Of a stretch of DNA of 50,259 bases, positions 325 to 20,479 are shown piece by piece (position 1 is the first letter of the stretch; each line of letters opens with the position of its first letter). The notes beneath the pieces were generated by a model. It did no database searches, was not told the DNA's origin, and was given only the letters and a program-made list of their open reading frames with translations. Where the stretch lies: IMG/VR virus record IMGVR_UViG_3300013132_000072, positions 1-50,259 of that record. The stretch is one strand, 5' to 3'. Both the position numbers and the translations under genes were made by a program. Source of the stretch: a virus.

Positions 325-1389
325 ATGAGTAGCGTCAGCCTAACCTTTGATGATATATCCCTAATACCACGACTCAGTACAATCAAGAGCCGGTCGGAAG
401 TACAGCTGCACACCGTACTCGGCTCAGTCCGTCCACTGTGCTTGCGGCTTCCTATTATTAGCGCCCCGATGGATACGGTAAGCAGCCCTGCACTAGCTGC
501 AGTGCTGAGCGATGCCGGCGGTATTTGCATCCTGCATCGCTATCTGTCTATTGCCGAGCAGGCGACCCAGGTCACAGCTGCTCGGGAGTTGGCTACCGAC
601 AAGCTACGCTTCCAAATCGGCGGCGCAGTCGGAGCGACCGGAGACTTTCTAGAGAGGACTGCTGCCCTAGTAACTGCAGGAGCGAAAGTAGTATGCGTAG
701 ATATGGCGCACGGGCATTCGTATGCGGCCAGAGACGCAATTAAGGCCATTCGAGCAGCTTACCCCGATCTGCATATTATGGCGGGCAATATTGCGACTGC
801 CGAAGCATACAATGATTTGGTTGCATGGGGGGCCGACTCCCTGCGTGTTTCTATTGGTAGCGGCTCCTGCTGTGAAACCAGGGTCAATACAGGGCATGGA
901 GTGCCGGCACTCCACAGCGTTATGGATGTCGTGCAAAATGCTTATACCGGTGGTACAAATGCTAACGGCAGGCCGATATATCCTGCAGGCATTATTCTTG
1001 ATGGGGGCATCAGGAATCCTGGCGATATCGTGAAGGCTCTTGCTGTTGGTGCGCAGGCCGTCATGATGGGCAGCATGTTTGCTGGAACAGACGAGTCGCC
1101 CGGTCGCCGCATTATTGTAGACGGCGTTGAAAAAGTTGTATTCCGAGGCATGGCCAGCCCAGAGAGCCAGCTTGAGTGGCGGGGATATGTCGGGAGTGAC
1201 GAGGGCACATCGCACTATGTCGACCCAAAGGGGCCAGCACAGGCTGTTATCGACAAGGTCGTCAACGGAGTTCGGTCAGGTCTATCGTACTCTGGCGCAT
1301 TCTCCATTGAAGATTTTCATAGCAAGGCCAGGTTTGTCCAGCAAACAGTGGCAGGGCTAATCGAGGGCAAGCCTCATATCAGGCTGTGA
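325..1389 (+). CDS. IMP dehydrogenase / GMP reductase family protein
   Basis: A 354-residue TIM-barrel enzyme of the IMPDH/GMPR family, which interconverts IMP with XMP or GMP using a nicotinamide cofactor. N-terminal [11 protein letters not shown] and APMDTVS match the family. The catalytic cysteine loop reads [11 protein letters not shown], with Cys183 as the expected nucleophile, followed by [19 protein letters not shown] and [14 protein letters not shown] are the phosphate-binding and post-barrel segments. There are no CBS domains, so it is shorter than the usual bacterial GuaB (about 490 aa). The flap region [10 protein letters not shown] resembles GMP reductases more than classical IMPDH (which has SSDRYFQ), so IMPDH versus GMPR is unresolved. 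The likely role is steering host purines toward phage nucleotides. Confidence 0.9.
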
Positions 1390-1395
1390 TTGCTT

Positions 1396-2160
1396 ATGAA
1401 TACAAATCCGCATCATATAGATGGCTATGCAAGTTTGCATTTAGACAATTACTCTAGTGCTAGAATTAACATCGTAAGCAAAAAGACTGATGGAGCGAGA
1501 GCGGTGGCCGAATCCAGCTGGCAGGTCCCTGCTACCACTACCCAGCTTAGCAAGATAAATCAGGGTGGCTCTGGATCGCCTCCGGAGCTTGTAGAGCAGC
1601 AAATTGTAGGACTAAGGAGTGAGGCGGGAACAAACCTTTATAAAGTAGATTTCCTCAGCAATCACAAGCCTGATCACGACTCGGCACACCGAGTCGATAT
1701 GTTGGTGCTATCAAGTCTGCTAACAAAAGAAGTTCGTACACTTACGTATTGGACTGATTTTGATGCAGAAATTCTGCTACCAAAGGCGCCAGCATCCAGC
1801 AAGCTTTTTGTAGAAGATCTGTTAAGTCCGAAGGTAATCGTAATCGGAGGAAATACTGAAATAAGTTCGTCCGCAATCAGCTCCGCAAGCGTTTCAGTGC
1901 ATGCTAAGCACGCCTGGCCAGCTGTGAAGAAAGACAAGGAGGATCTTGTAAGAATGGAGGCAACGGAAGATGGTGAGTGGAAGTTCTGGTCAATCTGGAA
2001 ATCCGGAAACAGAGTTTTTTATTACCACGGCCGTATAGGCGATCCCTCTGGAAACGAGGGCGCCTATGTCAGCAGCTCAGTCCGGGCAGCCGGAGGAGTT
2101 GTGCGCTTTATGCAGCAGAAGGTTGCAGAAAAGACGCGCAAAGGGTATGTAAAAGTATGA
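1396..2160 (+). CDS. WGR-domain protein
   Basis: About 254 residues starting at ATG 1396 (TTG 1390 is also possible). It follows directly after the purine enzyme gene and was probably co-transcribed with it. The first 190 residues are not recognised. The C-terminal 60 residues fit a WGR domain: KFWSIWKSGNRVFYYHGRIG, then GAYVSSSVRAAGGVVRFMQQ, then KTRKGYVKV. The signature W-G-R is H-G-R here. WGR domains occur in poly(ADP-ribose) polymerases and MolR-like regulators, where they bind nucleic acid ends. No ADP-ribosyltransferase motif is visible in the rest of the protein, so a binding or adaptor role is more likely than catalysis. Confidence 0.65.
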   Translation: MNTNPHHIDGYASLHLDNYSSARINIVSKKTDGARAVAESSWQVPATTTQLSKINQGGSGSPPELVEQQIVGLRSEAGTNLYKVDFLSNHKPDHDSAHRVDMLVLSSLLTKEVRTLTYWTDFDAEILLPKAPASSKLFVEDLLSPKVIVIGGNTEISSSAISSASVSVHAKHAWPAVKKDKEDLVRMEATEDGEWKFWSIWKSGNRVFYYHGRIGDPSGNEGAYVSSSVRAAGGVVRFMQQKVAEKTRKGYVKV

Positions 2161-2192
2161 CATTGCCGTACAGGCAGAAACGAGAATGGTAA

Positions 2193-2456
2193 GTGGAAGA
2201 TAATAAGGGACGGCGTTTCTTCCGCCGTCGAGACCGAAACGAGGATGACTCGTTCGAGGTAAAGGTGGTTCTTCGCGATGGCGAGTCCGCCGATAGTTTG
2301 GTTAAACGTTTCAAATGGGCCGTTGAGGCCAGTGGCATTCTGAAGGAGGTGAGAGATCGTGAATATGCCATGTCGCCGTCAGAAAAAGCAAAATTCAAGC
2401 GGCGCCGCGCTGCAAAGCGCCGAAACAAGGCTAGGCAAGATCGCTCGGATCGATGA
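2193..2456 (+). CDS. rpsU: Ribosomal protein bS21 homologue
   Basis: An 87-residue basic protein starting at GTG 2193. The core VVLRDGESADSLVKRFKWAV followed by GILKEVRDREY matches the bS21 signature (two helices with R-F-K and L-x-E-x-R-x-R-x-Y/F), and the C-terminus is an Arg/Lys-rich tail (KFKRRRAAKRRNKARQDR), as in cellular bS21. A Lys/Arg-rich N-terminal extension of about 20 residues (GRRFFRRRDRNEDD) is extra. bS21 sits near the anti-Shine-Dalgarno end of 16S rRNA and aids initiation. Phage copies are known in large phages and are thought to bias ribosomes toward phage mRNA; that role is inferred here. A strong terminator follows. Confidence 0.88.
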   Translation: MEDNKGRRFFRRRDRNEDDSFEVKVVLRDGESADSLVKRFKWAVEASGILKEVRDREYAMSPSEKAKFKRRRAAKRRNKARQDRSDR

Positions 2457-2465
2457 TAATTAGCT

Positions 2466-2492
2466 AAACGGCCGTCCCTCCCGGCCGTTTTT
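2466..2492 (+). terminator. Rho-independent terminator after rpsU
   Basis: AAACGGCCG pairs with CGGCCGTTT around a seven-base loop (TCCCTCC), with five T residues at the 3' end. It closes the operon that starts with the purine enzyme. Confidence 0.88.
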
Positions 2493-2514
2493 GCTATCAA
2501 AGAAGGCGCATACT

Positions 2515-2536
2515 TGCGTCTGCCCATAACCCCGGG
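2515..2536 (+). repeat. Intergenic motif, copy A (copy B at 3177-3198)
   Basis: TGCGTCTGC, two variable bases, then ATAACCCCGG lies in the 100-base gap before clpP. Nearly the same string (TGCGTCTGC, three bases, ATACCCCGG) lies just after clpP at 3177-3198. The gap also holds a perfect 12-base palindrome, TCGCATATGCGA, at 2560-2571. Function unknown; a promoter or operator element is possible. Confidence 0.4.
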
Positions 2537-2593
2537 CACGATCAGATGAGTACCGACTTTCGCATATGCGAGCACAGATGAGAGGTTATTTCA

Positions 2594-3175
2594 GTGGCAA
2601 GACCAAAGAAAGTACAGGCGCCTCCAGCCCCGCCCCCACCGGGGCGGGATCGCATACCACCCCATGACCCACGTCGCAGCATCTACTTGTTCGGCGAAGT
2701 AGATACTGATATGACAAAGCACCTCGCCGAGCAAATGGCACACCTACTAAAGGAAGATAGCAAATCCCCTATTTGTGTAGTTGTCAATACAGAGGGCGGT
2801 GGAGTCTACGAGTCTTTTGCCATGCACGACCTTATCCGTGCCTGCCCTGCTCCAGTGCACACCTATGGACTAGGTACCGTTATGAGCGCCGGTACCATCA
2901 TTCTTGCGGCAGGACGCAAGCGGTATGCCTACCCTAATTGCTGGCTAATGGCTCACGAGCCATGGTTTGTTGGCAGCGACCTGCGTGCTGGCGAGCTGAA
3001 ATCAGACATGCTCCACAACGAGCGACTAAGCTCAGTATTCTACGGACTTTATAGCAAATACTGCCAGAAGCCGATAAATATCATCGAAAGTGATCTGAAC
3101 GGTCGAACAATTTACTTCAGCGCGACCGAGGCAAAGAAGTACGGCTTTGTGGATGACATCGTCGACATTGAGTGA
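2594..3175 (+). CDS. clpP: ClpP-like serine peptidase (family S14)
   Basis: A 193-residue protein of ClpP length, starting at GTG 2594 with AGAGG eight bases upstream. It has a proline-rich N-terminal tail (residues 6-17) and then the ClpP fold. VVVNTEGGGVYESFAMHDLI matches the oxyanion strand/helix, GLGTVMSAGTIILAAG carries the nucleophile Ser98, and YPNCWLMAHEP carries His121. The catalytic Asp is unclear: the usual position in the segment IIESDLNGRTIYFSATEA reads Gly-Arg-Thr, with Asp167 three residues early. No ClpX/ClpA ATPase is seen nearby, so it could use host Clp ATPases, remodel host proteolysis, or act as a ClpP-type head-maturation protease. The last cannot be excluded. Confidence 0.88.
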   Translation: MARPKKVQAPPAPPPPGRDRIPPHDPRRSIYLFGEVDTDMTKHLAEQMAHLLKEDSKSPICVVVNTEGGGVYESFAMHDLIRACPAPVHTYGLGTVMSAGTIILAAGRKRYAYPNCWLMAHEPWFVGSDLRAGELKSDMLHNERLSSVFYGLYSKYCQKPINIIESDLNGRTIYFSATEAKKYGFVDDIVDIE

Positions 3176-3197
3176 CTGCGTCTGCGGCATACCCCGG

Positions 3198-3218
3198 ACG
3201 CACTCGTGGCCAGTGCGT
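3198..3218 (+). other. Intergenic hairpin without a T tract
   Basis: ACGCACT pairs perfectly with AGTGCGT around CGTGGCC, directly following motif copy B. No T run follows, so it is not a classical terminator. It may be an RNA processing site, an operator or a leader structure for the downstream gene. Confidence 0.4.
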
Positions 3219-3240
3219 GTAAGCAAAGGATTGCCTAGCA

Positions 3241-3549
3241 GTGAAACAAGCAGATCTCATCCTGGGTTGCCATGGCCGTGAGGAGCACGGCATATGCCTT
3301 TGTGGCGGCACATCCTCGGCGATACTAGATTTGCTAAGCGTGCACCCCGCGGATAAAAAATTCCACGATTACATGTACAAGCTCATGCGATTAGACCAGA
3401 GGCCGATTACCGATTATAATGCAGTAATAAGCACTCTGCAATTTCTAAGAGGGGCTTATCTGCCAGATAAACAATTTGAGGTAATCGGTGAGTGGTTAAG
3501 GTTTCACAAGAGATGCGGAATCTATATGTACAGGAGTACGCTTGACTAA
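3241..3549 (+). CDS. Hypothetical protein
   Basis: A 102-residue protein with a GTG start at 3241 and an AAAGGA sequence about 11 bases upstream. No family is recognised. The N-terminal part contains four Cys/His residues close together (CHGREEHGICLC), a possible metal-binding knuckle. The rest is mixed helical with many aromatic and charged residues. Its stop overlaps the start of the next gene by eight bases, so the two are probably translationally coupled and belong to the same operon as the primase zinc-finger protein and SbcDC. Confidence 0.6.
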   Translation: MKQADLILGCHGREEHGICLCGGTSSAILDLLSVHPADKKFHDYMYKLMRLDQRPITDYNAVISTLQFLRGAYLPDKQFEVIGEWLRFHKRCGIYMYRSTLD

Positions 3550-3904
3550 GCAAATCAGCACTACCAAACTGGCAGCGGCTTTCCGAAAACTACAGGACGC
3601 GCAAGAGCGAATGACTAGGCTCGCTAAGAGCTATTGGGCGTATTTCAAGTCTGATCCTGCAGGTTTTGAGATGGAGCCGCTTAATGCAGCGGCCGCAGAG
3701 CTAAATTCTATTTCATCAGCCGAGGGAGCACAGACTAGCGCGACACTGGCCCTAAACGGTCTGATGCATTTAGCATCCAGGGTCAAGGATCTTGAGGCCG
3801 AAAATAAGAGTCTGCGGCGTCGCCTGGAGAGGTTAGAGTCAGATGCAGAACGGAAGAGTCAAATTTCAGCAGAGCAACACTCAGCTGAAGTCACTGCTGA
3901 GTGA
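3542..3904 (+). CDS. Hypothetical coiled-coil protein
   Basis: A 120-residue protein with a TTG start at 3542 supported by AGGAG at 3531-3535. It is mostly helical, with a heptad-like coiled coil near residues 80-104 (LASRVKDLEAENKSLRRRLE), suggesting dimerisation. No family is recognised. Its 3' end overlaps the primase zinc-finger gene by 62 bases in a different frame, an unusually long overlap for this window. The context (primase half, SbcDC) suggests an accessory role in DNA replication or recombination, but nothing in the sequence proves it. Confidence 0.55.
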   Translation: MTKQISTTKLAAAFRKLQDAQERMTRLAKSYWAYFKSDPAGFEMEPLNAAAAELNSISSAEGAQTSATLALNGLMHLASRVKDLEAENKSLRRRLERLESDAERKSQISAEQHSAEVTAE

Positions 3905-8922: not shown

Positions 8923-10869
8923 TTGACACTAAAAGTATCAGTAAGCAGCCTGGATACCTACGAAAGCTGCCCAAGGAAATATAGGTTCCAGCAAATCGAC
9001 AAGCTCCCACGCAAGACCTGGGAGCATCTCGATGTAGGCAACTACGTCCACGAGGTACTGGAGCATTTTCACAAAGAGCTGAATGCAGATGCTAGCCAGC
9101 AGCCGGAGGCGCTTCTTAAGCAGATCGCCAAGAATACGTGGAACAAATTCTCTACAAAGATTAGCGCAGAAGGTATGGAGAAGAGCAAGGGCCTCCTCAA
9201 GTCATATCTTGCGCACGTTTCTTCCGAGGGCTGGCCAGATGTTCTTGCCACAGAAGATCGTTTTAGCATTCAGATTAACAATGACCTGCTAATCCGTGGC
9301 GTTGTAGACAGGATTGATCGCACTCCGAACGGATATCAAATCCTGGATTACAAGGGTTTGGCTCTCGATACCCCCATTCCAACGCCGAGCGGCTGGACAA
9401 CAATGGGCGACCTAAAGGTTGGCGACAAGGTGTTTGGCAGCGATGGTCAGGAGACGACCGTAGTTATCAAATCCGGGGTTCATAACCGGCCCTGCTACAA
9501 GATTACCATGAGCGATGGCTCTGACGTCGTATGCGACAACGTACACCTATGGCAGGTGTCTCTGGCAGGTTCAAAAATGACGGACAAGAGCGAGAAAACG
9601 CTCGACGCAGATCAGCTCTTCGAGCTTTTCAGCTCCCTTCAGAAGGACCGAAGGGGGTCAATTGTGATAAAAAATCCTAAGCCACTTCAGTATCCAGAAC
9701 AGGATCTACCTATTGATCCATGGGTACTGGGGGCCTGGCTTGGGGATGGGCATAGAAAAACTGGCAGCCTGACTGTCGGGGCCCAGGATTTTGACGACAT
9801 GACTTCCATTGTCAGGGAGAAGTGGGGAGACTTCTCCGTCTCCAAGGAAAAGAAGAGGAATCCTAATCACAATGACGTTTTCACAGTTACCTTGACAAAG
9901 CCCCGGCATGATCGATGTGGATTTGGTCATGATCAGAGTTTGCATAAAGCTAATCATGAATCCGCGGACACATGCCTGATATGCTCGAATCGAACAAGTC
10001 GCCAGAGGAACGGCACCCTTGATCCTGAAAGGGATCCGGCAAGAACCAATATTCCACTGAGAGGCCTTTTGAAGGCAAATAATTTGCTATACAACAAGCA
10101 CATCCCGGAGATATATCTTAGGTCATCTGTAGCCCAGAGACTAGAGCTCCTACGCGGACTGATGGATACAGATGGTCACTTTTCATATAAAAAAGGTAGA
10201 TGTGTATTCGTCTCATCAGACAAGGCACTTGCTCATAGTATCAGGCACCTGATAAAGACTTTTGGCATCTCTACACGGCTCTATGAGGCTGTAGATAAAC
10301 ATGGAAATAAGTCATGCCAGGTTGTGTTCTCTCCTGTCGGCATTAACCCATTTAGACTAAAGCGAAAGGCTGACCTGGTCGACGGACACGTATTCAAAGA
10401 GCCAAGGATGGCACTGGGAAGGCGCATTAAGGTTATGGAGAGAGTTGAAAGTGTTCCAACCCAGTGCATTCAAGTTGATGCGCCCGACTCCCTGTATGTT
10501 TGTGGCAATGGTCTAAACCTAACCCACAATACGGGAAAATCCTCCTACCTCGACAAGTTCCAGCTGCAGGTCTACGGGATGCACCTAAAGAACCTCTTTC
10601 CTGACATCCAGGAATACGATGGTGTCTACTTGGTACTGCCAGAGGGTCCTAAGAAGCTCAGCTACCGGATTACGCTGAGCGATGTCGAAGAGGCAAAAGA
10701 GGACATTATTAAGACTGCTGAGCAAATCGCTACGGACAAGACTTGGGAGCCTAAGCCAACATTCTTGTGCAAGTATTGCGATTATTATGACGCCTGCCCA
10801 GACGGCTGGGGCAAGGGCAAGAGCGGCGGGTCGGATTTGGTTAAAATCTCGGGCAGAAAGAAATTCTGA
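8923..10869 (+). CDS. RecB/Cas4/AddB-type 4Fe-4S PD-(D/E)XK nuclease, interrupted by an intein
   Basis: A 648-residue precursor; removing the intein (residues 145-536) leaves a 256-residue nuclease. The N-terminal SSLDTYESCPRKYRFQQI is the conserved QxxxC-type start of RecB-family nucleases and carries the first iron-sulfur Cys. LLIRGVVDRIDR supplies Asp129, and LDYK joined to TGKSSYLDKFQLQ gives the D-x-K (Asp142, Lys144) and QxxxY motifs. The C-terminus FLCKYCDYYDAC provides the other three cluster cysteines. This layout is that of Cas4, AddB and phage PD-(D/E)XK exonucleases acting on DNA ends. No cas genes or helicase are adjacent, so a recombination or host-DNA degradation role alongside SbcCD and RecA is more likely than CRISPR adaptation. 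Confidence 0.9.
   Translation: MTLKVSVSSLDTYESCPRKYRFQQIDKLPRKTWEHLDVGNYVHEVLEHFHKELNADASQQPEALLKQIAKNTWNKFSTKISAEGMEKSKGLLKSYLAHVSSEGWPDVLATEDRFSIQINNDLLIRGVVDRIDRTPNGYQILDYKGLALDTPIPTPSGWTTMGDLKVGDKVFGSDGQETTVVIKSGVHNRPCYKITMSDGSDVVCDNVHLWQVSLAGSKMTDKSEKTLDADQLFELFSSLQKDRRGSIVIKNPKPLQYPEQDLPIDPWVLGAWLGDGHRKTGSLTVGAQDFDDMTSIVREKWGDFSVSKEKKRNPNHNDVFTVTLTKPRHDRCGFGHDQSLHKANHESADTCLICSNRTSRQRNGTLDPERDPARTNIPLRGLLKANNLLYNKHIPEIYLRSSVAQRLELLRGLMDTDGHFSYKKGRCVFVSSDKALAHSIRHLIKTFGISTRLYEAVDKHGNKSCQVVFSPVGINPFRLKRKADLVDGHVFKEPRMALGRRIKVMERVESVPTQCIQVDAPDSLYVCGNGLNLTHNTGKSSYLDKFQLQVYGMHLKNLFPDIQEYDGVYLVLPEGPKKLSYRITLSDVEEAKEDIIKTAEQIATDKTWEPKPTFLCKYCDYYDACPDGWGKGKSGGSDLVKISGRKKF
9355..10530 (+). mobile_element. 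Class 3-type intein with LAGLIDADG homing endonuclease
   Basis: A 392-residue intein within the nuclease gene, between Lys144 and Thr537, splitting the active-site motif DYK|TG. The N-terminal splicing block reads GLALDTPIPTPSGWTTMGDL with Gly rather than Cys/Ser as residue 1. The block B region CDNVHLW has His208 and Trp210, the block F region TQCIQVDAPDSLYVCG has Cys515, and the end is LTHN followed by Thr. Trp, block-F Cys and the Thr before His-Asn are the WCT set that defines class 3 inteins, which do not need a residue-1 nucleophile. LGAWLGDG and LLRGLMDTDGHF are the two LAGLIDADG motifs. A Cys/His-rich insertion (CGFGH to CLIC) lies between them. Confidence 0.88.
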
Positions 10870-10876
10870 GGCAAGC

Positions 10877-11656
10877 ATGAACATCGACGGAACATATAAG
10901 GTTGGCAATAACAAGTATTTATACCTAAATAGCAAAACGGGAGAGGGGTTTGAGAAGCTAATTAGCCTAATGCGTGGCTTTCTGAATCACCAGCTAAATA
11001 CCATGGAGTTCCCCAGTTTTGGCCGTGATGATCTCGAGCAGGAGATGCTGACTCTTGCGATGGAGGCGCTGCCGAGGTACGACGAGACAAAGCCTGCGAA
11101 TCTACTGACGTTCCTCCAGAACCACATCAAAAACCGTCTGATCAATATGTGCAAGTTCTTCTCACAGAAGAGGCGATGTGCAACCTATATTTCTGCTGAT
11201 TCACAGAAAGTGCGCTGCAATTCCTGCAGGACTTTCTTCCGTGCAAAGCAGAGCCTTGAGGTGCTTACCTGCCCAAAATGTGGTGAATCCGCTGAGAAGC
11301 ACAGTGGTATGTGGAAGTTCTACAACCTTATTGCGATCCCCGGTCAGATTGCCGTAGATGATAGCGATGCCCAGCTAGAGCAGGAGATCGATCCAGACAA
11401 CGCTCAATTTACCGCAATAGGATGCGGCGGCGGGACGCTCACCACCGATCACGGGATTGATATTTTGAAGCTTCTAGGGCAGGAAGACGACGTAAATAGA
11501 TCAATAATCAATCTAGTTTATCAGGGATACAGCCGTCAGGAAATAGCACTAAAGCTTGGGTTGACATCGGCCGTAGTAAGCAAAAACCTAGCCGAAGTTT
11601 GTAATAGGCTTAAGAATAAGATAACCGAGGACAGTAATGAATTTTCAGCTTTTTAA
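10877..11656 (+). CDS. Sigma-70-like factor with internal zinc ribbon
   Basis: A 259-residue protein from ATG 10877 (GAGG at 10868-10871). Residues 45-95 resemble sigma region 2: FGRDDLEQEMLTLAMEALPRYDET, then ANLLTFLQNHIKNRLINMCKF. Residues 114-135 form a zinc ribbon (CNSC, then CPKC). Residues 210-250 form a region-4-type helix-turn-helix (LVYQGYSRQEIALKLGLTSA, then VVSKNLAEVCNRLKNKI). Region 3 is largely replaced by the ribbon and linker, and region 1 is absent. It probably redirects host RNA polymerase to phage promoters, possibly late genes. Its end overlaps the start of the giant 2511-residue gene by 20 bases. Confidence 0.75.
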   Translation: MNIDGTYKVGNNKYLYLNSKTGEGFEKLISLMRGFLNHQLNTMEFPSFGRDDLEQEMLTLAMEALPRYDETKPANLLTFLQNHIKNRLINMCKFFSQKRRCATYISADSQKVRCNSCRTFFRAKQSLEVLTCPKCGESAEKHSGMWKFYNLIAIPGQIAVDDSDAQLEQEIDPDNAQFTAIGCGGGTLTTDHGIDILKLLGQEDDVNRSIINLVYQGYSRQEIALKLGLTSAVVSKNLAEVCNRLKNKITEDSNEFSAF

Positions 11657-14600
11657 GACTGCCGCCTTCGATAACGCCGTCACTCTACCCAGGGTCGGGT
11701 TTCTCTCTGGAGTACTGCGAAGCTTGGTTGCCCCGCTATACGCTTTTCATGATGAAAAACACCCTGAGCTAGAGTTTTTGGCGCTAAGTCTTGCTGATCA
11801 TTTTGCCGGCGCGGACCCGGAGACAAGGCTATTCCTGTCTCTGCGCTCACGAGACCCTTATGAGCTCGTCAATAAAAAGCTGCTCTCATTTAAGATGTCG
11901 CAGCTCCGAGCCTTTGCCGACGGCATAGAGAATCCCAGCGTTGAGCTCAGCGATGACAATATTCGCAAGCTAGTTGACCTCGTTATGCACGAGGCAGTAT
12001 TCCTCGCATGGGAAGAATTCTTGCGCTCCAACCCTCGCGCGGCCCTGCTCGCTGGAGCAGAGGGCCTTGCTCCATCGGAGCTGGTCAAGACTGCAGCGAA
12101 GAAGAAGAAGAACGCCCCCGCGATTGCTGAAGCAGAAGGTGGAGCCGAAGCTGAAGGTGGAGCTGAAGGCGGCGCGGTACAGCGTGGGCGCCTTCAGCGT
12201 CGCACGGGAGGTGAAGTCTACTCGCTAAGGGCCCCTACCATTAGCCAGGGCAGAGATGAAGTTGCTGTTTTGGCATACGAGGCCCTTCACAATGCTCTGG
12301 TAATGTCCTCGTTGCTTGAGGGCACCCTCCAGCATAGCGCCGGAACCACCAGGGCATTTAGGGAGCGATCACTTTCTATTTTAATACATCACGCTGATCA
12401 AGTCGACGAAATTGATAATTTCCGCGCAGCAGTCGCAGAGATATGTGCCTCTAATCAGCAGCGGCCTATTGTAAACGGCCTTCCACTTGTCAGTGATCCT
12501 CCGATGGGCGATATTCTCGGCTCTGATTTCTCCAGGTGGACCAGGTCCTCCGTCGTCGACGACGATAATGATGGCAAAGAACACCATCCTGCGGGATTTG
12601 TAACTGCCATGGCACTTGGCGTTGACGCAAATACACGAAGAAATGCGGCAGAAACAAGTCTGCAAATTCGTAGAACTATTATGGGGAAAGAAGCTGCCGG
12701 ACCATCAATTATCTTAGGTACTGGGCGAGCTGCAATTGGGGCTCATAAGCGCCTTGCATCGGCATTTTCCTCAGAACCTGACAAGCTTAAGTCTGCCATT
12801 CATGGGATTGTCGTTGCAGGCCTGAATGCCAAGATCAGAGCCATGAAAATAAATGGAGTGCCAACAGCCCCGTGGCTCGGTATTATCCCGGCGCTGACCT
12901 ACCCTGATATAAAGCAAAAGGCCGATGCTGCACTGGGCAGAATCCTTGGAAGCATCGATGGCAATTTCTCATCTCTGGAGGAGGCTGCGCAGATATGCAA
13001 TGCCGCGGTTGATAGCGAGGCTGCTAATGCGGATCTGCAAAAGGTAGCGCGCTCGCGGTGGGTCACCAAGCAAAATCATCCCACGGAAGAGCTGGGCAGC
13101 TCGTTCCTGCACTTTTTGGCGAGCACAATCTTGGGGCTACCGATCAAGCTTGCCTCACTATGGAAGGAAATGGTTATTACAGAGGCCCTTGCTCCGATTC
13201 CCAAGCTAGATATATCAAAGGAGGTTCAAGTAGGGGGTAAAACACTAACTGTAAAGCAGCTCGCAAGCCTGCTCGGTACTTCCACTGTTGCCGACAAGGC
13301 GGCACGGACCTCGGTTGCGGCACAGGATGCAATCATAAATCTATTTAGCCACTCTACGGTTTCAAGCTCCGACCTGTTTATCGCATCTTTTGATTATATC
13401 AAAGGCCTTGACAGCGCCCCACAAATTATCAGAGCTAGAGAGAAGGCAGTGACCAACATAAAGCGAGCCGTAGAGTCCGCTCGTGCTGCCATTACAAGGC
13501 AGCTGGCAGAGCTCAGGGCCAGCAAAGAGGCCGCAGAGCAGTCTGGCACAGCAGAGAGCCTCGACAGCATACGGCTGTATGGCGAGACCATGAGTGCCGA
13601 TGTGGCACAGGCGCTTCTGGAGTTGCCCCGAGAAGATCTTAGCGCCGCAGTCTTTGCAAGCCTGATAATGTCTTTCGACAGCACCTCGCTGCCACAAGCC
13701 GATCTACAGGCGACATGCAAAAAGATAATTGCTAGTAATGGTAAGCTATATGAAGGAGAAAATCTAAAGGACTTTGCAGAGCTATTTGCTAAAGCAATCC
13801 CTCCTAACTTTAATCGCCAGCGCCCCGCGCAGGTTGCGTCTGATTTCCTAGGGTCCTCCAAAAGGTACCAAGATGCACTCCTCTCGGAAGAAGTAACCGG
13901 AGAGGAGGGCGCAGATGCACTCGCAAACCTTGGCACAGGTCTAGATAGAATTCAGACAGGGACGGCAGATGCTTCTGCAACTTGGTTTATGCACAGGGCA
14001 TCTAGTATTGCCCTCGTAAAAAACCTGTTGTCTGAGCACATCGCAGTAACCCTTGACGACAATGAGAAGAAAATAAAGCAGGAGATCGAGGATCATGTCG
14101 CTGTCGATCCAGCCTCGGGCCTGAGCAAGAGTCTTAAGCAAGACATTGATAGCAAGATTGAGGATCTAGAGAGAACGGGTATCCTGGGTCAGCGTGGCTT
14201 TGAGATAGATGCACAGGCCGATGACCTAAAGGAATCAGAATCAAAAGCTGTCAATCCAGAGCAAGCCGTGGTCCTCCGCAATGTTAATCGGTTTTTGCGC
14301 AAGAACTCGAAGAGCTCAATCCTGGCAGAGCTACAGCGGCGTGGTTTTGACGAAACCTATTACGACGCATTACTTGTACTTGTTTCTCGAAAAATCGGAG
14401 TTCAGTTCGCCGAAATGCTGGAGAAGAATGCACTGTCGCGCTATTCCGCCAAGAAAGAGATGACCCAGTCCCTTGGGTCTGGCGGCGAGGTCAGTGTCTC
14501 GCGCACCGACCGTGATGGTGATCGTGACTACGGCGGTGGTGGCGGTCGCGATACCGGCGCCGAGGCCAGCGAGAGCGAGGGCCTAGCCCAAGAATCTGCC

Positions 14601-17600
14601 GAAGCCCAAAAGATTCTCGGCAGTGGCGAGATTAAGAGTTTTGTGTCGAAGTGGTATACCTACCCGGTGTATGACTCGAAGGGCAACATCGGCGCGCAGT
14701 CTCTGGCGGGCTTTTTAGCAAATGCAATGCACAAAGCAGACCTGGCCCAAAATGGAGATGCCAAGGCCAAGGAGTACATAGAGTATATAACTAAAGACCC
14801 AGCCGTGAAAACTGGAAATGTGCGGACTCACCCCCTTTCGATGATGATGAAGCATGCCGTTCGCAATGCAGTTGGTGCTGAGCTGTTTCTTGATCCTGCG
14901 CGGAAAAATCTTGCTACGATCATTTCCTATAACAAGGCAAGCGGAAGCGATATAGTTTCATATGCCAAAGTAGCCGCGGACATCGGGCTACTAGCAGATC
15001 CGATTCGTGCCGCAGAGAACCTAGCCGCTGGAGATCGGCGCGGAGACACTTATCGCCGTGCCTTTGAGAGAATGCTGATGAAAGCCGGCCATATGAAGGT
15101 AGACAATTATGAAATCTGGAAAGCCGGTATGCTAGAGGAGCTGCAGGTATTTAGAAAACAACAGATTGCTAAAATCGACTCACTTCTGGCGCGGGGCGTA
15201 ATAACTGCTAGCTCCAAGAACATGCTAACAACCATTCTCGATAGAAAATTCAATGGAAGTGCCGCATTTGATGCCACGTATTTGTCAACAGAAGAGGCGG
15301 ATGCGCTCCTGGTAATTGGCAAGGCTATTGGCGCACAACTGGTTCCAGCTGTTGATGACATCCTGCGCGAGACCATTGCTTCTCCAGAGTTTGAGGCAGC
15401 CGCGAGGAACGCAAAGGATGATGTCCAGGCTATTGCGAAGGACGTAAAAGACGACAAGAAAAAGAGCTATGGCAGATTCCTGCAGCAAAGGCTCGATGCA
15501 GCGGGATTTCCCGCGGCAGATGTTAGCCTTGGCGAAAAAATAAAAGCAATTATGGAAGTTCGCAGGATGCGGACCCCGCCCGCCGATCCTAAGGCTGTGA
15601 AGGTTTTTAATAGCAACCTGAAGAAATTTGAGAGCAGTCTGCCGACACTTCGTGCATCGCAGGACCGACTCATTTCATCGATTGTCAAGGCTGATGAGTT
15701 CCGCAGTGCGATTAGCCAATGGGCCAGTGAGCGCGGAGAAGAAATCAAGGCGCTTGTCGCAGCCGCTGATTTCGGCAACAAGGTTGCCGGAGCCCGCATG
15801 CTTGGCGCGGCCTTCAGAATAGCTATTAAGCAGGAGCTCGGAGAAGATGCAGAATCATCTTTTATGGATGCATCTGGCGGGTATTCTAATCTATTTGCCA
15901 GAGAAGACCTTGGTACAATCGTCAGCTTGCTAGTTGACTCTATAGAGCTTTATTTGAAGGACATTACTGACGCGTCACCGGAACGTGCGTCGCTTCTTAA
16001 GAAGAAGCTAGAGTCGACAGCTGTGACAGTGGGCACCGCATCTGTTGAGTCGGAAGGCCTGCTTCGGGTGCAGCAGCTTTCTCAGTTTGCCGATGGCACT
16101 CGCCTGATTGACGCTATTTCTGATGCGACAAAGAGTCTTCCGCAGCTGAAAATGTTTATGCAAACAGTAATAGCAGATAAAACCAGCCTTGCACTGCGCG
16201 GAGGAAGGGCGCTCCCTCAGACTCGACAGATGCTTGCCGAGGTCGCATCTCTGTTTGCTGAAAATAGCCCCGAGGTAGAGAGGATTGCCAAGGCCGCTCG
16301 TGGCAGCGAGAGCGACGAGGGGCGTGAGAAAAATCTGCGGCGCTACCGCCGTCTGGCGGCAGATGCGGCAGGCATACTGGAAGTAATATCCGAGCAGGTG
16401 GCGGTCGCCAGCGCTTCGGCAAATGAGATAGAAGAGGCCAAGAGCACGGCCTCTTTGATCACCGGCAGTGCCGCTCACAATGAGATGTTGCGGCTAGAAG
16501 ATGCTCTTCGCGCGGCTCGACTGCCACGGAGCCACGCCTTCTCTACGTACAAACGCACTTATGAGATGCATGCCGCCCATGTGGCAGATGTTGCACAGAA
16601 GTACGCCAAGGCGGTCGAGCAGAACTACGGCTCTATGTTCGAGGCCCAAGAGCGGCTCAAGGCCAGCGGCAAGACTGTTGAAACTGCGACTCCGGAAGAG
16701 TTGGAGAGGGTGTTTCGACAGATCGCATCGGGATCGGTAGTCGGCCCGCAGCTAGACGCCAAGGTGCGAGAGATTAATGCCTCTCCGCTTGAATTCTTGC
16801 TAAAGAATCCAGACCTTATCGGAGTGGTACAGAGGCGATTTAATCTGGCCCAGATTAAAGAAGCATTTCTAAGTGCCGGATTCGCACAACCGCTGTCTAG
16901 CATCCTAGCAGATTTTGCAGTGCAGGACGCAGGCGATCTTAGGGCCGTCCTCGCCAGCCGACCGGGATCCTATGCTAAGCTCAATAAATGGGTCGATGGT
17001 CAAAAAGGAACTCCCGAAGAGCGAAAGGCAGCGACAAAGAGCAAGGTGGCCAAGATAATGGACAATCACCTCTCTGAAGTGATCGCTGCAAATGCCAATA
17101 GCTTGGCAAGAAGAGCTCTTGATCTCCCCGAAGAAGAGGAAGAAGCGGACGATGTCGATCAAAGGCGCATTGCGGCCCAGGTCGAATTTGCGAAAACAAA
17201 AGGCGTCGAGATCTTCAAGAAGATCGCATATGCAGAAGCCAAGGTGCAACAAACTGCCGAGTTGGCCGCAGCCGCCGCCAAGGGACGCGATGTTGTTTCA
17301 GATGAGTTCCGCCGGGGCTTTGCAGAGGCACAGCAGCAGCGCGAGCTTGCACAAGAGATCAGTCCAGCAGACGACATTATCAACTTTTCAGAAATTGTTC
17401 TGGAAGAAGACGAGGTAGTCACCAGTGAAGAGACTGAGCAGAAACGGAAGGTAAGGACAGAAATCGTTAATTTCTGCACCTCTTTCATGCGCAGGGATAT
17501 GGGCAACAACATCGGCAAGGTCTTCGGCGACTTTATCAGTGCACTGCGGGCGCAGATCGATAATGAGTCGGTGCTTGACAAGCTCGAAGTCAGCGACCTG

Positions 17601-19172
17601 ATCACCCTTAATACCGACTATATTACGCGCCTCAAGAATATCAAAGCAAATGCAAGGTCTGTGAAAGATGTCGGCAATATGCTCGTGGCTCTTTCAAAAG
17701 ATATTGAGCGCGTCGTATTCAAGAACACGACTTCCATCGCCTTCTCTCCAGCGGCAGAGAAGGATGAGAGCCGTTTTGAATCAGAGCTTGACAAAGTCTT
17801 GGCGCGAATGAATGCTAAGATAGACAGCACCCTGAGCAAACCTGGAGTCAGCGCCGCGGAAGGCGACGACATGTCCCTTGCGGAGAAGGGGCTTGAGAAT
17901 ATCAGGCTCTCACTAAACTCTATCTCGCAGGACAAGCGTCAGGTCAACGGCGACCGTCTAGATGAAAAGGGCGTAATGTCAGTGCTCGCAGATATTGAAA
18001 AACTTATAGCGCCAGCCACTGCAGAAAGGGCCACGCCAGCGATCATGAAAACTCTCATGGACAAACTCGGGCTATTTGGCCTGTCGTCAAACCAACCAGG
18101 AGTCGGCTATTACGAGATCGGTGTACCACTTGTAATCCCAGACTCATCCGGCTTCCAGGCGGCAGTGGACCAGCTTGAGAGCGAGGTTGAGCAAGCGAAG
18201 CTCGGCTCAGGTCCGGCGGCTGCGGATGAATATCTTCCGCTAGAGAGCCTTGTGCGTGCATATTCTGAAGGCATGTACCAGTTTGCGCGCTCCGCCGACG
18301 TGGCAGCTGCGACTAGCCTGCTCTCGTCTCTGTTGCCAGGCATAAACGCAGGCTCTAAGATGAGCGAAAAACAAGTTAGCGAAATCCACTCTAAGCTAGC
18401 GGACATGGGAGTCATAACCAAGGCTCCTACTGCACCGCATGTGGTGGAAATCCATGATGTTCCACGGGTCGAGCCAATTGGCCCTGAGCAGCCGCCAGAG
18501 GCGCCACAGACTGCGGTTTCGCCACTAATGGACATTCAAGAGGGCAGGCTATCGCCTCCTCGTGCAGAGTCACCCGAGGAAGAGATTATCGAAGTCTCGG
18601 AAGGGGACATCGAACCTGTTGACGAAGGGGACATCGAACCTGTTGACGAAGAGGGCATCGAACCTGTTAGCGAAAATGATGGTAGTGAAGAGCTCGATGA
18701 AATCCCGGCGGGAGAGGTCTATTTAATAGAGCAAGAACCTGCCGTCGCCCCTGCTCCATCGAAGGTCACTCCGACCCCGATTGATCTCGGCCCTAAGCCC
18801 ATGTCACAGGAGTCCCTCGAGGTGCTGGACAGAATTATAGAAGAAGCAGATACGATCAATAATATGCTGGCCGCGGCAGGAGTTGCGGGCCCAGTGCACG
18901 AGTCGCTAACCGGTATTAAGAACAGGCTAACGGCTGCAAGGGCCTCTGGCGTAGTAGCTGACGACCTGGATCAGCTCGTGGATGTTCTTGATCGTGCCAT
19001 GGCCTTGTCTGATGAAGTAGCGGCGGGCGATCCAAGCGCGTTTGCTACGATTGCTCCGCCTGCAATGGCAGACTTGTTAGAGGGTGTGAGCAAGATTATC
19101 ATGCCCAAGAAGGCCAACTCACGTCCTCCTGCATTTATACGAGATGGCGATAGTTGGACAGTGCTAGTGTGA
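11637..19172 (+). CDS. Giant protein of unknown function (2511 aa)
   Basis: The largest gene in the window. No enzymatic motif was recognised on reading through it; it is Ala/Glu/Lys-rich and predicted mostly helical. It begins MNFQLFKTAAFD, the signature shared with several other proteins here. Three low-complexity linkers are visible: a Lys then Glu/Ala/Gly stretch at residues about 155-182, a Gly/Asp stretch at about 953-975 (DYGGGGGRD), and a Pro/Glu-rich region at about 2265-2350 with an eight-residue repeat (GDIEPVDE). These separate probable globular helical blocks. Its size and composition suggest a packaged internal virion or head protein, but a tape measure or ejected protein is possible. 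A terminator follows its stop. Confidence 0.85.
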   Translation: MNFQLFKTAAFDNAVTLPRVGFLSGVLRSLVAPLYAFHDEKHPELEFLALSLADHFAGADPETRLFLSLRSRDPYELVNKKLLSFKMSQLRAFADGIENPSVELSDDNIRKLVDLVMHEAVFLAWEEFLRSNPRAALLAGAEGLAPSELVKTAAKKKKNAPAIAEAEGGAEAEGGAEGGAVQRGRLQRRTGGEVYSLRAPTISQGRDEVAVLAYEALHNALVMSSLLEGTLQHSAGTTRAFRERSLSILIHHADQVDEIDNFRAAVAEICASNQQRPIVNGLPLVSDPPMGDILGSDFSRWTRSSVVDDDNDGKEHHPAGFVTAMALGVDANTRRNAAETSLQIRRTIMGKEAAGPSIILGTGRAAIGAHKRLASAFSSEPDKLKSAIHGIVVAGLNAKIRAMKINGVPTAPWLGIIPALTYPDIKQKADAALGRILGSIDGNFSSLEEAAQICNAAVDSEAANADLQKVARSRWVTKQNHPTEELGSSFLHFLASTILGLPIKLASLWKEMVITEALAPIPKLDISKEVQVGGKTLTVKQLASLLGTSTVADKAARTSVAAQDAIINLFSHSTVSSSDLFIASFDYIKGLDSAPQIIRAREKAVTNIKRAVESARAAITRQLAELRASKEAAEQSGTAESLDSIRLYGETMSADVAQALLELPREDLSAAVFASLIMSFDSTSLPQADLQATCKKIIASNGKLYEGENLKDFAELFAKAIPPNFNRQRPAQVASDFLGSSKRYQDALLSEEVTGEEGADALANLGTGLDRIQTGTADASATWFMHRASSIALVKNLLSEHIAVTLDDNEKKIKQEIEDHVAVDPASGLSKSLKQDIDSKIEDLERTGILGQRGFEIDAQADDLKESESKAVNPEQAVVLRNVNRFLRKNSKSSILAELQRRGFDETYYDALLVLVSRKIGVQFAEMLEKNALSRYSAKKEMTQSLGSGGEVSVSRTDRDGDRDYGGGGGRDTGAEASESEGLAQESAEAQKILGSGEIKSFVSKWYTYPVYDSKGNIGAQSLAGFLANAMHKADLAQNGDAKAKEYIEYITKDPAVKTGNVRTHPLSMMMKHAVRNAVGAELFLDPARKNLATIISYNKASGSDIVSYAKVAADIGLLADPIRAAENLAAGDRRGDTYRRAFERMLMKAGHMKVDNYEIWKAGMLEELQVFRKQQIAKIDSLLARGVITASSKNMLTTILDRKFNGSAAFDATYLSTEEADALLVIGKAIGAQLVPAVDDILRETIASPEFEAAARNAKDDVQAIAKDVKDDKKKSYGRFLQQRLDAAGFPAADVSLGEKIKAIMEVRRMRTPPADPKAVKVFNSNLKKFESSLPTLRASQDRLISSIVKADEFRSAISQWASERGEEIKALVAAADFGNKVAGARMLGAAFRIAIKQELGEDAESSFMDASGGYSNLFAREDLGTIVSLLVDSIELYLKDITDASPERASLLKKKLESTAVTVGTASVESEGLLRVQQLSQFADGTRLIDAISDATKSLPQLKMFMQTVIADKTSLALRGGRALPQTRQMLAEVASLFAENSPEVERIAKAARGSESDEGREKNLRRYRRLAADAAGILEVISEQVAVASASANEIEEAKSTASLITGSAAHNEMLRLEDALRAARLPRSHAFSTYKRTYEMHAAHVADVAQKYAKAVEQNYGSMFEAQERLKASGKTVETATPEELERVFRQIASGSVVGPQLDAKVREINASPLEFLLKNPDLIGVVQRRFNLAQIKEAFLSAGFAQPLSSILADFAVQDAGDLRAVLASRPGSYAKLNKWVDGQKGTPEERKAATKSKVAKIMDNHLSEVIAANANSLARRALDLPEEEEEADDVDQRRIAAQVEFAKTKGVEIFKKIAYAEAKVQQTAELAAAAAKGRDVVSDEFRRGFAEAQQQRELAQEISPADDIINFSEIVLEEDEVVTSEETEQKRKVRTEIVNFCTSFMRRDMGNNIGKVFGDFISALRAQIDNESVLDKLEVSDLITLNTDYITRLKNIKANARSVKDVGNMLVALSKDIERVVFKNTTSIAFSPAAEKDESRFESELDKVLARMNAKIDSTLSKPGVSAAEGDDMSLAEKGLENIRLSLNSISQDKRQVNGDRLDEKGVMSVLADIEKLIAPATAERATPAIMKTLMDKLGLFGLSSNQPGVGYYEIGVPLVIPDSSGFQAAVDQLESEVEQAKLGSGPAAADEYLPLESLVRAYSEGMYQFARSADVAAATSLLSSLLPGINAGSKMSEKQVSEIHSKLADMGVITKAPTAPHVVEIHDVPRVEPIGPEQPPEAPQTAVSPLMDIQEGRLSPPRAESPEEEIIEVSEGDIEPVDEGDIEPVDEEGIEPVSENDGSEELDEIPAGEVYLIEQEPAVAPAPSKVTPTPIDLGPKPMSQESLEVLDRIIEEADTINNMLAAAGVAGPVHESLTGIKNRLTAARASGVVADDLDQLVDVLDRAMALSDEVAAGDPSAFATIAPPAMADLLEGVSKIIMPKKANSRPPAFIRDGDSWTVLV
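18603..18674 (+). repeat. Three 24-base tandem repeats inside the giant gene
   Basis: Two identical 24-base units (18603-18626 and 18627-18650) and a third diverged copy (18651-18674) encode GDIEPVDE, GDIEPVDE and EGIEPVSE. The repeat lies in an acidic, proline-rich linker and could expand or contract by slippage without shifting the frame. Confidence 0.9.
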
Positions 19173-19177
19173 AGAGG

Positions 19178-19199
19178 GCGCCCTTCGGGGCGCTTTTTT
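19178..19199 (+). terminator. Rho-independent terminator after the giant gene
   Basis: GCGCCC, a TTCG tetraloop and GGGCGC are followed by six T residues. It lies six bases past the stop codon and ends the nuclease, sigma and giant-protein operon. Confidence 0.92.
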
Positions 19200-19237
19200 C
19201 ATGTCCGCACATTATTCGCCCGGGTGTAATTGCTGGC

Positions 19238-20479
19238 ATGACCAACATCCAACACTCGCTCCTTGAAAAAGACGGAAAATATATCGTCGACATTACAGTT
19301 CCAGGGCCTCTTGTAGAAAAAGCTCTGAATGCGGCGGCCCAGGCTATTGCAGATAAGGCAGAGGTCCCAGGCTTCCGGCCTGGAGCAGCCCCTCTCGCCA
19401 TCGTGCGACAGCACTATGCGCCTCAACTAAAGGCCCAGGTTTCTTCCAGGCTTGTACAGGAGGCTACCCGAGACGCGCTACGAACTCTGCAAATCTCTGC
19501 CGGAGCCAGACCAATGGTGCTACCAGAATTCAGGCCCGCTGGTATTCGCAAGTGGGTAGGTCGATTCGAGCTCAATGGCACCTTCAAGTTCGCAGTCGCT
19601 ACAGACGTGCCTCCGGCAGTTACCACCGTGGACATCGACGGGATCACTGTAACGCCTCATACCGATGATCCTAATGCGGTCATTGACGAACAGCTGCACC
19701 ACTTGCGCCACGATCTTGCTATCAAGTCCCCTTCGAGCCAGCCATCAACGGAGCTAGATGAGATCATTTGCTCTATTGTTGCGCTTGACCAGAATGGACA
19801 GGCACTCCCAGAAATGTCACTGGCCAGCTTCCCGCTGTCTCTTGATCTACAAAAGGAAGCCCTACTAAGCCGTACCATGGCCGCCCAGCTAATCGGCAGG
19901 CGCCCTAGTGATCAGGTGGAGTTTTCAGAAGATGGCCTCACCTATCGAATTTCCATCGAAGCAGTCAACATAAAGACCCTGCCAGTTCTAGATGATGCGT
20001 TGGCTCAGCAGTGCGGAATCGCTTCGCTGCAGGAGCTTCGTGATCGAATCCACGAGGAGTGGCTACTGCGAAATGCCGCCCGAATCAGGCGAGATCTTCA
20101 CATGCAAGTTCGCGAACAGCTTGTGGCCAAGAACCCATTCCAAGTTCCGGAGGCCTGGACAGCAGATTATCGGGAAAAAGTTCAGAGTCTGGCAGATTTT
20201 TCCGAAGCACTCCAGGAGAGCGAAGAGCGAGCTGCCCGATTTGCCCAGATCTACGCCGCGTCAGACTACCTACTAGAGATTATCGAAGAAAAGTTTTCAA
20301 GTGAAGTACAGCTGTCGGACGCAGATTTGCTTAATTACGCCAAAGAAGAGCTGGGCGTGTCTGGAGTAAAACCCGAAGATTATATCAAGGTTATGCTGGC
20401 AAAGGGCCAGTACGATTCATGGGTTCTTCAGCAGAAGAAGACGAAAACGCTCGATTGGCTTATTACAAGGGCCAAGTGA
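19238..20479 (+). CDS. tig: Trigger factor (ribosome-associated chaperone, PPIase)
   Basis: 413 residues from ATG 19238, close to the bacterial trigger factor length of about 430. The N-terminal ribosome-binding domain contains VPGFRPGAAPLAIVRQHY; the usual signature GFRxGKxP is altered to GFRPGAAP, losing the Lys that normally touches ribosomal protein uL23. A PPIase (FKBP-like) domain follows at about 135-215, and then the helical arms: LPVLDDALAQQCGI, LQELRDRIHEEW, VPEAWTADYREKV. It would hold or fold nascent chains and may serve the large structural proteins encoded here. Phage-encoded trigger factors are rare. The open frame extends upstream through the terminator, but no supported start lies there. 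Confidence 0.9.
   Translation: MTNIQHSLLEKDGKYIVDITVPGPLVEKALNAAAQAIADKAEVPGFRPGAAPLAIVRQHYAPQLKAQVSSRLVQEATRDALRTLQISAGARPMVLPEFRPAGIRKWVGRFELNGTFKFAVATDVPPAVTTVDIDGITVTPHTDDPNAVIDEQLHHLRHDLAIKSPSSQPSTELDEIICSIVALDQNGQALPEMSLASFPLSLDLQKEALLSRTMAAQLIGRRPSDQVEFSEDGLTYRISIEAVNIKTLPVLDDALAQQCGIASLQELRDRIHEEWLLRNAARIRRDLHMQVREQLVAKNPFQVPEAWTADYREKVQSLADFSEALQESEERAARFAQIYAASDYLLEIIEEKFSSEVQLSDADLLNYAKEELGVSGVKPEDYIKVMLAKGQYDSWVLQQKKTKTLDWLITRAK

Follow-up and report, generated by a model that had tools for sequence, protein, structure and literature searches.

The window, by which we mean the whole stretch of 50,259 nucleotides that was analysed, carries on its plus strand an open reading frame (ORF) at 8923-10869 that starts with TTG and encodes 648 aa, the 1947-nt frame being uninterrupted by stops. 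Residues 145-536 of this protein (nt 9355-10530) constitute an intein of 392 aa, running from Gly1 to a terminal Thr-His-Asn, and the two flanking exteins once joined amount to 256 aa, as calculated from the translation (Table 1). An earlier sequence-only reading had placed an intein at these very positions, exactly between the DYK and TGK of a nuclease, and had predicted a spliced product of 256 aa. These claims are confirmed by PDB matches to class 3 inteins and by a natural allele in a sister jumbo phage (L013, an IMG/VR record of 371,675 bases). The nuclease gene of L013 is intein-free, likewise starts with TTG, and encodes a protein of 256 aa, the predicted length, that is 84% identical to the window exteins. 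Because L013 is a natural allele without the intein, both intein borders are fixed: L013 reads ILDYKTGQS without interruption, whereas the window reads ILDYK-intein-TGKS. At the DNA level, the intein-free junction of L013 is GATTACAAA^ACGGGC (here and below, a caret marks an insertion point or splice junction).

The two phages also have a gene order in common, namely SbcC, a 105-aa protein, a 294-aa protein, the nuclease, and a sigma-like protein, and the L013 record suggests that the window is a piece of a jumbo phage. Among the 256 extein codons compared, 103 carry synonymous and 41 non-synonymous changes, a balance as expected for a gene under constraint. The DNA identity between L013 and the window is not raised near the insertion site, and there is therefore no trace of recent homing from an L013-type relative.

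A second intein was seen at 23637-24047 of the window. It is a mini-intein of 137 aa and of class 1 type (Cys1 ... AHN^Cys), hosted by DNA polymerase III alpha at the site YGF^CKAHSVAYA. With DnaE as the query, the DnaE of L013 proved to be uninterrupted, so that both window inteins are absent from this phage; an intein search of the whole L013 record found none. Elsewhere, the window encodes a member of the IMP dehydrogenase/GMP reductase family (325-1389; PF00478, 1.3e-95), a 2511-aa ORF (11637-19172), and a protein with a trigger factor N-terminal domain (19154-20479; PF05697, 1.5e-21). To our knowledge, the trigger factor domain is uncommon among phage genes. In L010, a single ORF at 397-3744, terminase-like by eye, apparently holds two inteins, the first of class 3 (THN^T) and the second ending in AHN^C.

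Table 1. Features of the interrupted nuclease gene (window positions; residue numbers of the splicing blocks and endonuclease are those of the intein unless stated otherwise).
Feature	Positions	Strand	Basis
N-extein, 144 aa: Cys16 (Fe-S), His43, Asp129, strand ending D142-Y-K144	8923..9354	+	Pfam PDDEXK_1, 1.3e-29
Class 3 intein, 392 aa, with LAGLIDADG endonuclease	9355..10530	+	PDB matches of ~1e-25, alignment, AlphaFold2 model
Block A, GLALDTPIPTPSGW; position 1 without Cys, Ser, or Thr	9355..9396	+	Aligned with 6bs8 and 6rix
Cys47 (precursor Cys191), equivalent of DnaBi1 Cys48	9493..9495	+	Alignment; PMC6195587
Block B, D61-N-V-H64-L-W66 (W66 = precursor Trp210)	9535..9552	+	H64 and W66 invariant
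First LAGLIDADG motif, VLGAWLGDG	9724..9750	+	D131 and G132 invariant in the nine-sequence alignment
Cys/His module in the endonuclease, C188-x3-H192 ... C207-x2-C210	9916..9984	+	Sequence
Second LAGLIDADG motif, LLRGLMDTDG	10147..10176	+	Pfam LAGLIDADG_3, 1.7e-11 (above cut-off); D271, D273, and G274 invariant
Block F, PTQCIQVDAPDSLYVC; nucleophile Cys371 (precursor Cys515), codon 10465-10467	10456..10503	+	Aligned with DnaBi1 Cys118 (PMC6195587)
Block G, ending Thr390-His391-Asn392 (Thr390 = precursor Thr534)	10507..10530	+	T, H, and N invariant
C-extein, 112 aa: +1 Thr, TGKSS, Fe-S motif C-x2-C-x5-C at 10768-10797	10531..10869	+	Pfam Cas_Cas4, 4.7e-9

The host protein is a PD-(D/E)XK nuclease of the Cas4/AddB-like kind with a [4Fe-4S] Cys motif. 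Pfam matches, conserved residues, and fold all agree with the earlier proposal of a Cas4/AddB-type host that is split behind its catalytic Lys. Among 27 relatives, the catalytic residues H43, D129, D142, and K144 never vary, and the cluster cysteines C16, C224, C227, and C233 are conserved to at least 90%. Since the intein-free L013 protein scores 63.8 bits against the Cas4 equivalog TIGR00372 and thus misses its cut-off of 65, we call the nuclease Cas4-like and do not file it as a CRISPR Cas4. For the L013 protein, the structural model (pLDDT 85.8) matches the folds of the Argonaute-associated Cas4-family ACE1, AdnAB, AddAB, and Cas4, and it contains a strand at residues 137-144. The insertion point is the end of this strand, directly after the catalytic Lys, a position that probably keeps the nuclease inactive until splicing has occurred. 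The sequence-only reading had considered a 4Fe-4S nuclease an unusual host for a class 3 intein, which turns out to be wrong. Kelley et al. 2016 (PMC5050341) describe 40 class 3 inteins in the PD-(D/E)XK motif of the Cas4/RecB-like exonucleases that C1 mycobacteriophages encode, and place them with the terminase TerL1-d inteins (48% identity); further phages and actinobacteria can be added to these, as discussed below.

The intein sequence on its own, searched against the PDB, returned MchDnaB1 (6rix, 2e-25) and Msm DnaBi1 (6bs8, 3e-25), and alignment to these two places the Trp in block B and the Cys, Thr, His, and Asn in blocks F and G. The class 3 assignment from a Trp-Cys-Thr (WCT) triplet in blocks B, F, and G, first made from the letters alone, is thereby upheld, and the residue numbers given with it (Gly145, Trp210, Cys515, and Thr534, then His535 and Asn536) are right on the translation. 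The intein combines Gly145 at position 1, the WCT triplet, the block B H64, H391, N392, and a +1 Thr. The triplet (W66/C371/T390) is invariant in a nine-sequence alignment of the window intein and eight relatives. Nor does it vary in any of 162 distinct relatives, which come from viral contigs, phages, and bacterial genomes; this survey was sampled by similarity and endonuclease motifs, so that frequencies from it are valid for that sample only. The observation as a whole is no chance pattern. The block F Cys of class 3 inteins acts together with the block B His and the block G Thr as a protease-like triad (PMC7664689), the residues of which are all present in the window intein.

Structure prediction, which the sequence-only reading had named as a check, yielded a confident AlphaFold2 model (54-row alignment; pLDDT 92.1, pTM 0.91) with a predicted HINT fold of class 3 type. 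With the whole intein model, Foldseek matches PI-SceI and hence the combined HINT/endonuclease architecture, while the splicing domain superimposes at 0.7-0.8 A over 68-69 columns on the 6bs8 and 6rix chains. The stretch that lies close to the class 3 structures is the first ~70 residues of the model, with 54-56% identity over ~68 aligned columns. The profiles Pfam Intein_splicing (PF14890) and TIGR01445 both miss the nuclease intein and detect only the DnaE intein.

Between blocks B and F, the intein carries a LAGLIDADG endonuclease with both motifs preserved. As this endonuclease looks intact, the intein is probably mobile and splicing-competent. To judge from its residues, the Cys/His module of the endonuclease possibly binds zinc; C188, G191, and H192 are kept in the two nearest relatives (L096 and L097). 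By eye, the module is partly seen in L048 too.

These nearest relatives come from actinobacterial genomes, namely a Frankiaceae MAG (L096, 45% identity) and a Nocardioides MAG (L097, 42%), and they have the same boundary as the window intein (RVVDYK^G...THN^TG(K/R)SPG). On the phage side, further cases are found in Streptomyces phage Frankenweenie, Pseudomonas phage Rollin, a human-gut phage record, and the viral contigs L028 and L073, all reading DxK^Gly...THN^Thr; the site in gp214 of phage Ghost (L003) is VELK^S...THN^TQ. In the Nocardioidaceae, the nuclease occurs in 124 of 150 genomes and the intein in three of them (G003 and G146, both also read as sequence, and G071, for which the interruption rests on split match coordinates). 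Most of the 124 thus have intein-free alleles, and an intein that turns up here and there in a widespread gene is the pattern that a mobile element gives. A scan of the nuclease for the DYKTG pattern was left out of the presence counts because this pattern picks intein-free alleles. The plasmid search found no nuclease host spanning the query. The chromosome of Nocardioides sp. B-3 has a frame-shifted nuclease-site intein (L098, 2501-3700), the frame shift of which reflects either decay or an assembly error.

In the tree of a 25-row set, the eight nuclease-site inteins with Gly1 form one clade (support 100/98), and the window intein groups with the actinobacterial inteins (99/96). The Ghost intein pairs with the intein of the LittleE terminase (100/99), in agreement with PMC5050341. 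An AU test on the same set rejects a single clade of all nine nuclease-site inteins (p = 0.003), and separate trees of the splicing domain and the endonuclease recover the same grouping. Class 3 inteins thus most likely arrived at this residue boundary on two or more occasions; alternatively, one lineage left the nuclease site again, the root of the tree not being fixed. The position of the window intein outside the Ghost-type C1 mycobacteriophage lineage, in a separate clade across phages and actinobacterial chromosomes, is well supported, and this clade is apparently not covered by Kelley et al. 2016 (PMC5050341). Cys383, considered as a marker of the nuclease clade, is present in 6 of 7 clade rows and also in 26 of 154 others, and is not diagnostic.

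A shared local context may be part of the story. Lys precedes the intein in 129 of the 162 surveyed cases and Ser or Thr follows it in 160, a K^(S/T) frame that is common to the P-loop GK^(S/T) and the nuclease DxK^T. Because both sites share this local extein, its compatibility may have eased a shift between P-loops and nucleases.

The signature of the class, the two borders, the preserved motifs, the intein-free allele, and the lineage are matters of observation; splicing, cutting, and inactivity before splicing we infer. In our reading, which we hold with high confidence, a mobile class 3 intein with a LAGLIDADG endonuclease sits between the Lys of DYK and the Thr that follows. The precursor would be a single 648-aa chain in which the intein separates the strand of the active site from the loop that follows. 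By analogy with known class 3 chemistry, Cys515, in the Cys-His-Thr site of the HINT fold, would attack the Lys-Gly bond to give a branched thioester; the +1 Thr would then take the N-extein, and Asn536 would cyclise, releasing a 256-aa nuclease with DYKTGK. The endonuclease would spread the intein into alleles that do not have it, and its lineage is specialised for the (D/E)xK^T of PD-(D/E)XK nucleases in phages as well as in actinobacterial chromosomes. Related class 3 inteins of phage terminases splice readily and some of their endonucleases are active, according to PMC5050341. Points against this explanation are the identity of only 45% to the nearest relative, the DNA identity to L013 that is not raised beside the insertion, and the origin of the window, a fragment of a virus from a metagenome.

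A first alternative makes splicing conditional. In Msm DnaBi1, the nucleophile Cys118 and Cys48 form an inhibitory disulfide under peroxide, and every replacement of Cys48 that was tried stops splicing; the original paper terms this Cys non-conserved (PMC6195587). Cys191 and Cys515 of the window precursor align with Cys48 and Cys118, and the host nuclease bears a [4Fe-4S] Cys motif. A switch in which a Cys191-Cys515 disulfide slows splicing, so that the nuclease would become active solely in a reducing cell, is nevertheless unlikely. In 147 of the 162 surveyed class 3 inteins, irrespective of host, the Cys191 position is occupied by Cys, and being near-universal in this class 3 sample it is no special adaptation to the Fe-S host. 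Together with the effect of the DnaBi1 replacements, this count implies that Cys191 may be kept for folding or catalysis and not for sensing. Moreover, the intein is missing from the sister phage and from most bacterial orthologues, and is therefore not needed for nuclease function. Oxidative inhibition is possible in view of the aligned cysteines, but it would then be a general property of class 3 and not one fitted to an Fe-S nuclease. We are similarly doubtful of a joint reading, in which a lineage dedicated to this site across divergent nuclease families, phages, and actinobacteria also operates a Cys191-Cys515 redox gate; its lineage part is supported.

Still less probable is a remnant that is splicing-dead or capable of cleavage only, with a gene that yields two fragments or nothing. 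The residues of class 3 catalysis, the two endonuclease motifs, and the +1 Thr are all intact, as are the catalytic and Fe-S residues of the nuclease in a frame that stays open over 1947 nt. A Gly at position 1 does abolish class 1 splicing and the relative L098 is frame-shifted, yet Gly1 is common to the other open nuclease-site inteins of the window clade. That a class 1 or class 2 intein was mis-filed by a few residues is hardly credible. Its endonuclease domain does resemble class 1 inteins such as PI-SceI, but position 1 is without Cys, Ser, or Thr, the WCT residues stand at class 3 block positions, and the splicing domain has the above-mentioned identity to class 3 structures.

The trees indicate two or more entries of class 3 inteins into a nuclease active site at one residue boundary. 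The interrupted window allele and the intein-free L013 allele provide a matched pair that is usable for splicing and homing tests. The Cys partner of the DnaBi1 redox switch, despite its "non-conserved" label, occurs in the majority of class 3 inteins across a broad sample, so that one can now test if oxidative inhibition belongs to class 3 in general or is special to mycobacterial DnaB. Class 3 inteins at this kind of nuclease site were already known from Kelley et al. 2016; what is new is a lineage apart from the C1 mycobacteriophage group.

Compared with known systems, the exonuclease inteins of the C1 mycobacteriophages resemble the window intein in being class 3, full length, inserted behind the Lys of (D/E)xK, and followed by a +1 Thr. 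The Ghost intein differs in having Ser instead of Gly at position 1 and ELK^TQ instead of DYK^TG, and it belongs to the LittleE terminase lineage, apart from the window clade. The inteins in actinobacterial RecB-family nucleases (L096, L097, and L293) share the boundary DYK^Gly ... THN^TG(K/R)S, a similar Cys/His module in the endonuclease, and the Fe-S Cys pattern of the host; unlike the window case they are chromosomal, and the extein of their host has ~28% identity to its counterpart in the sister phage L013. The intein in the Cas4 exonuclease of Streptomyces phage Frankenweenie (L002), labelled an intron in its record, falls in the same clade and reads DWK^Gly ... THN^T, but it measures 331 aa, is without the Cys/His module, and has a different-looking host nuclease. 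Finally, Msm DnaBi1 and MchDnaB1 have the WCT triplet, the block B His, Thr-His-Asn, and the Cys48 equivalent in common with the window intein, whereas these solved DnaB inteins are mini-inteins in a helicase and the window intein carries an endonuclease and resides in a nuclease.
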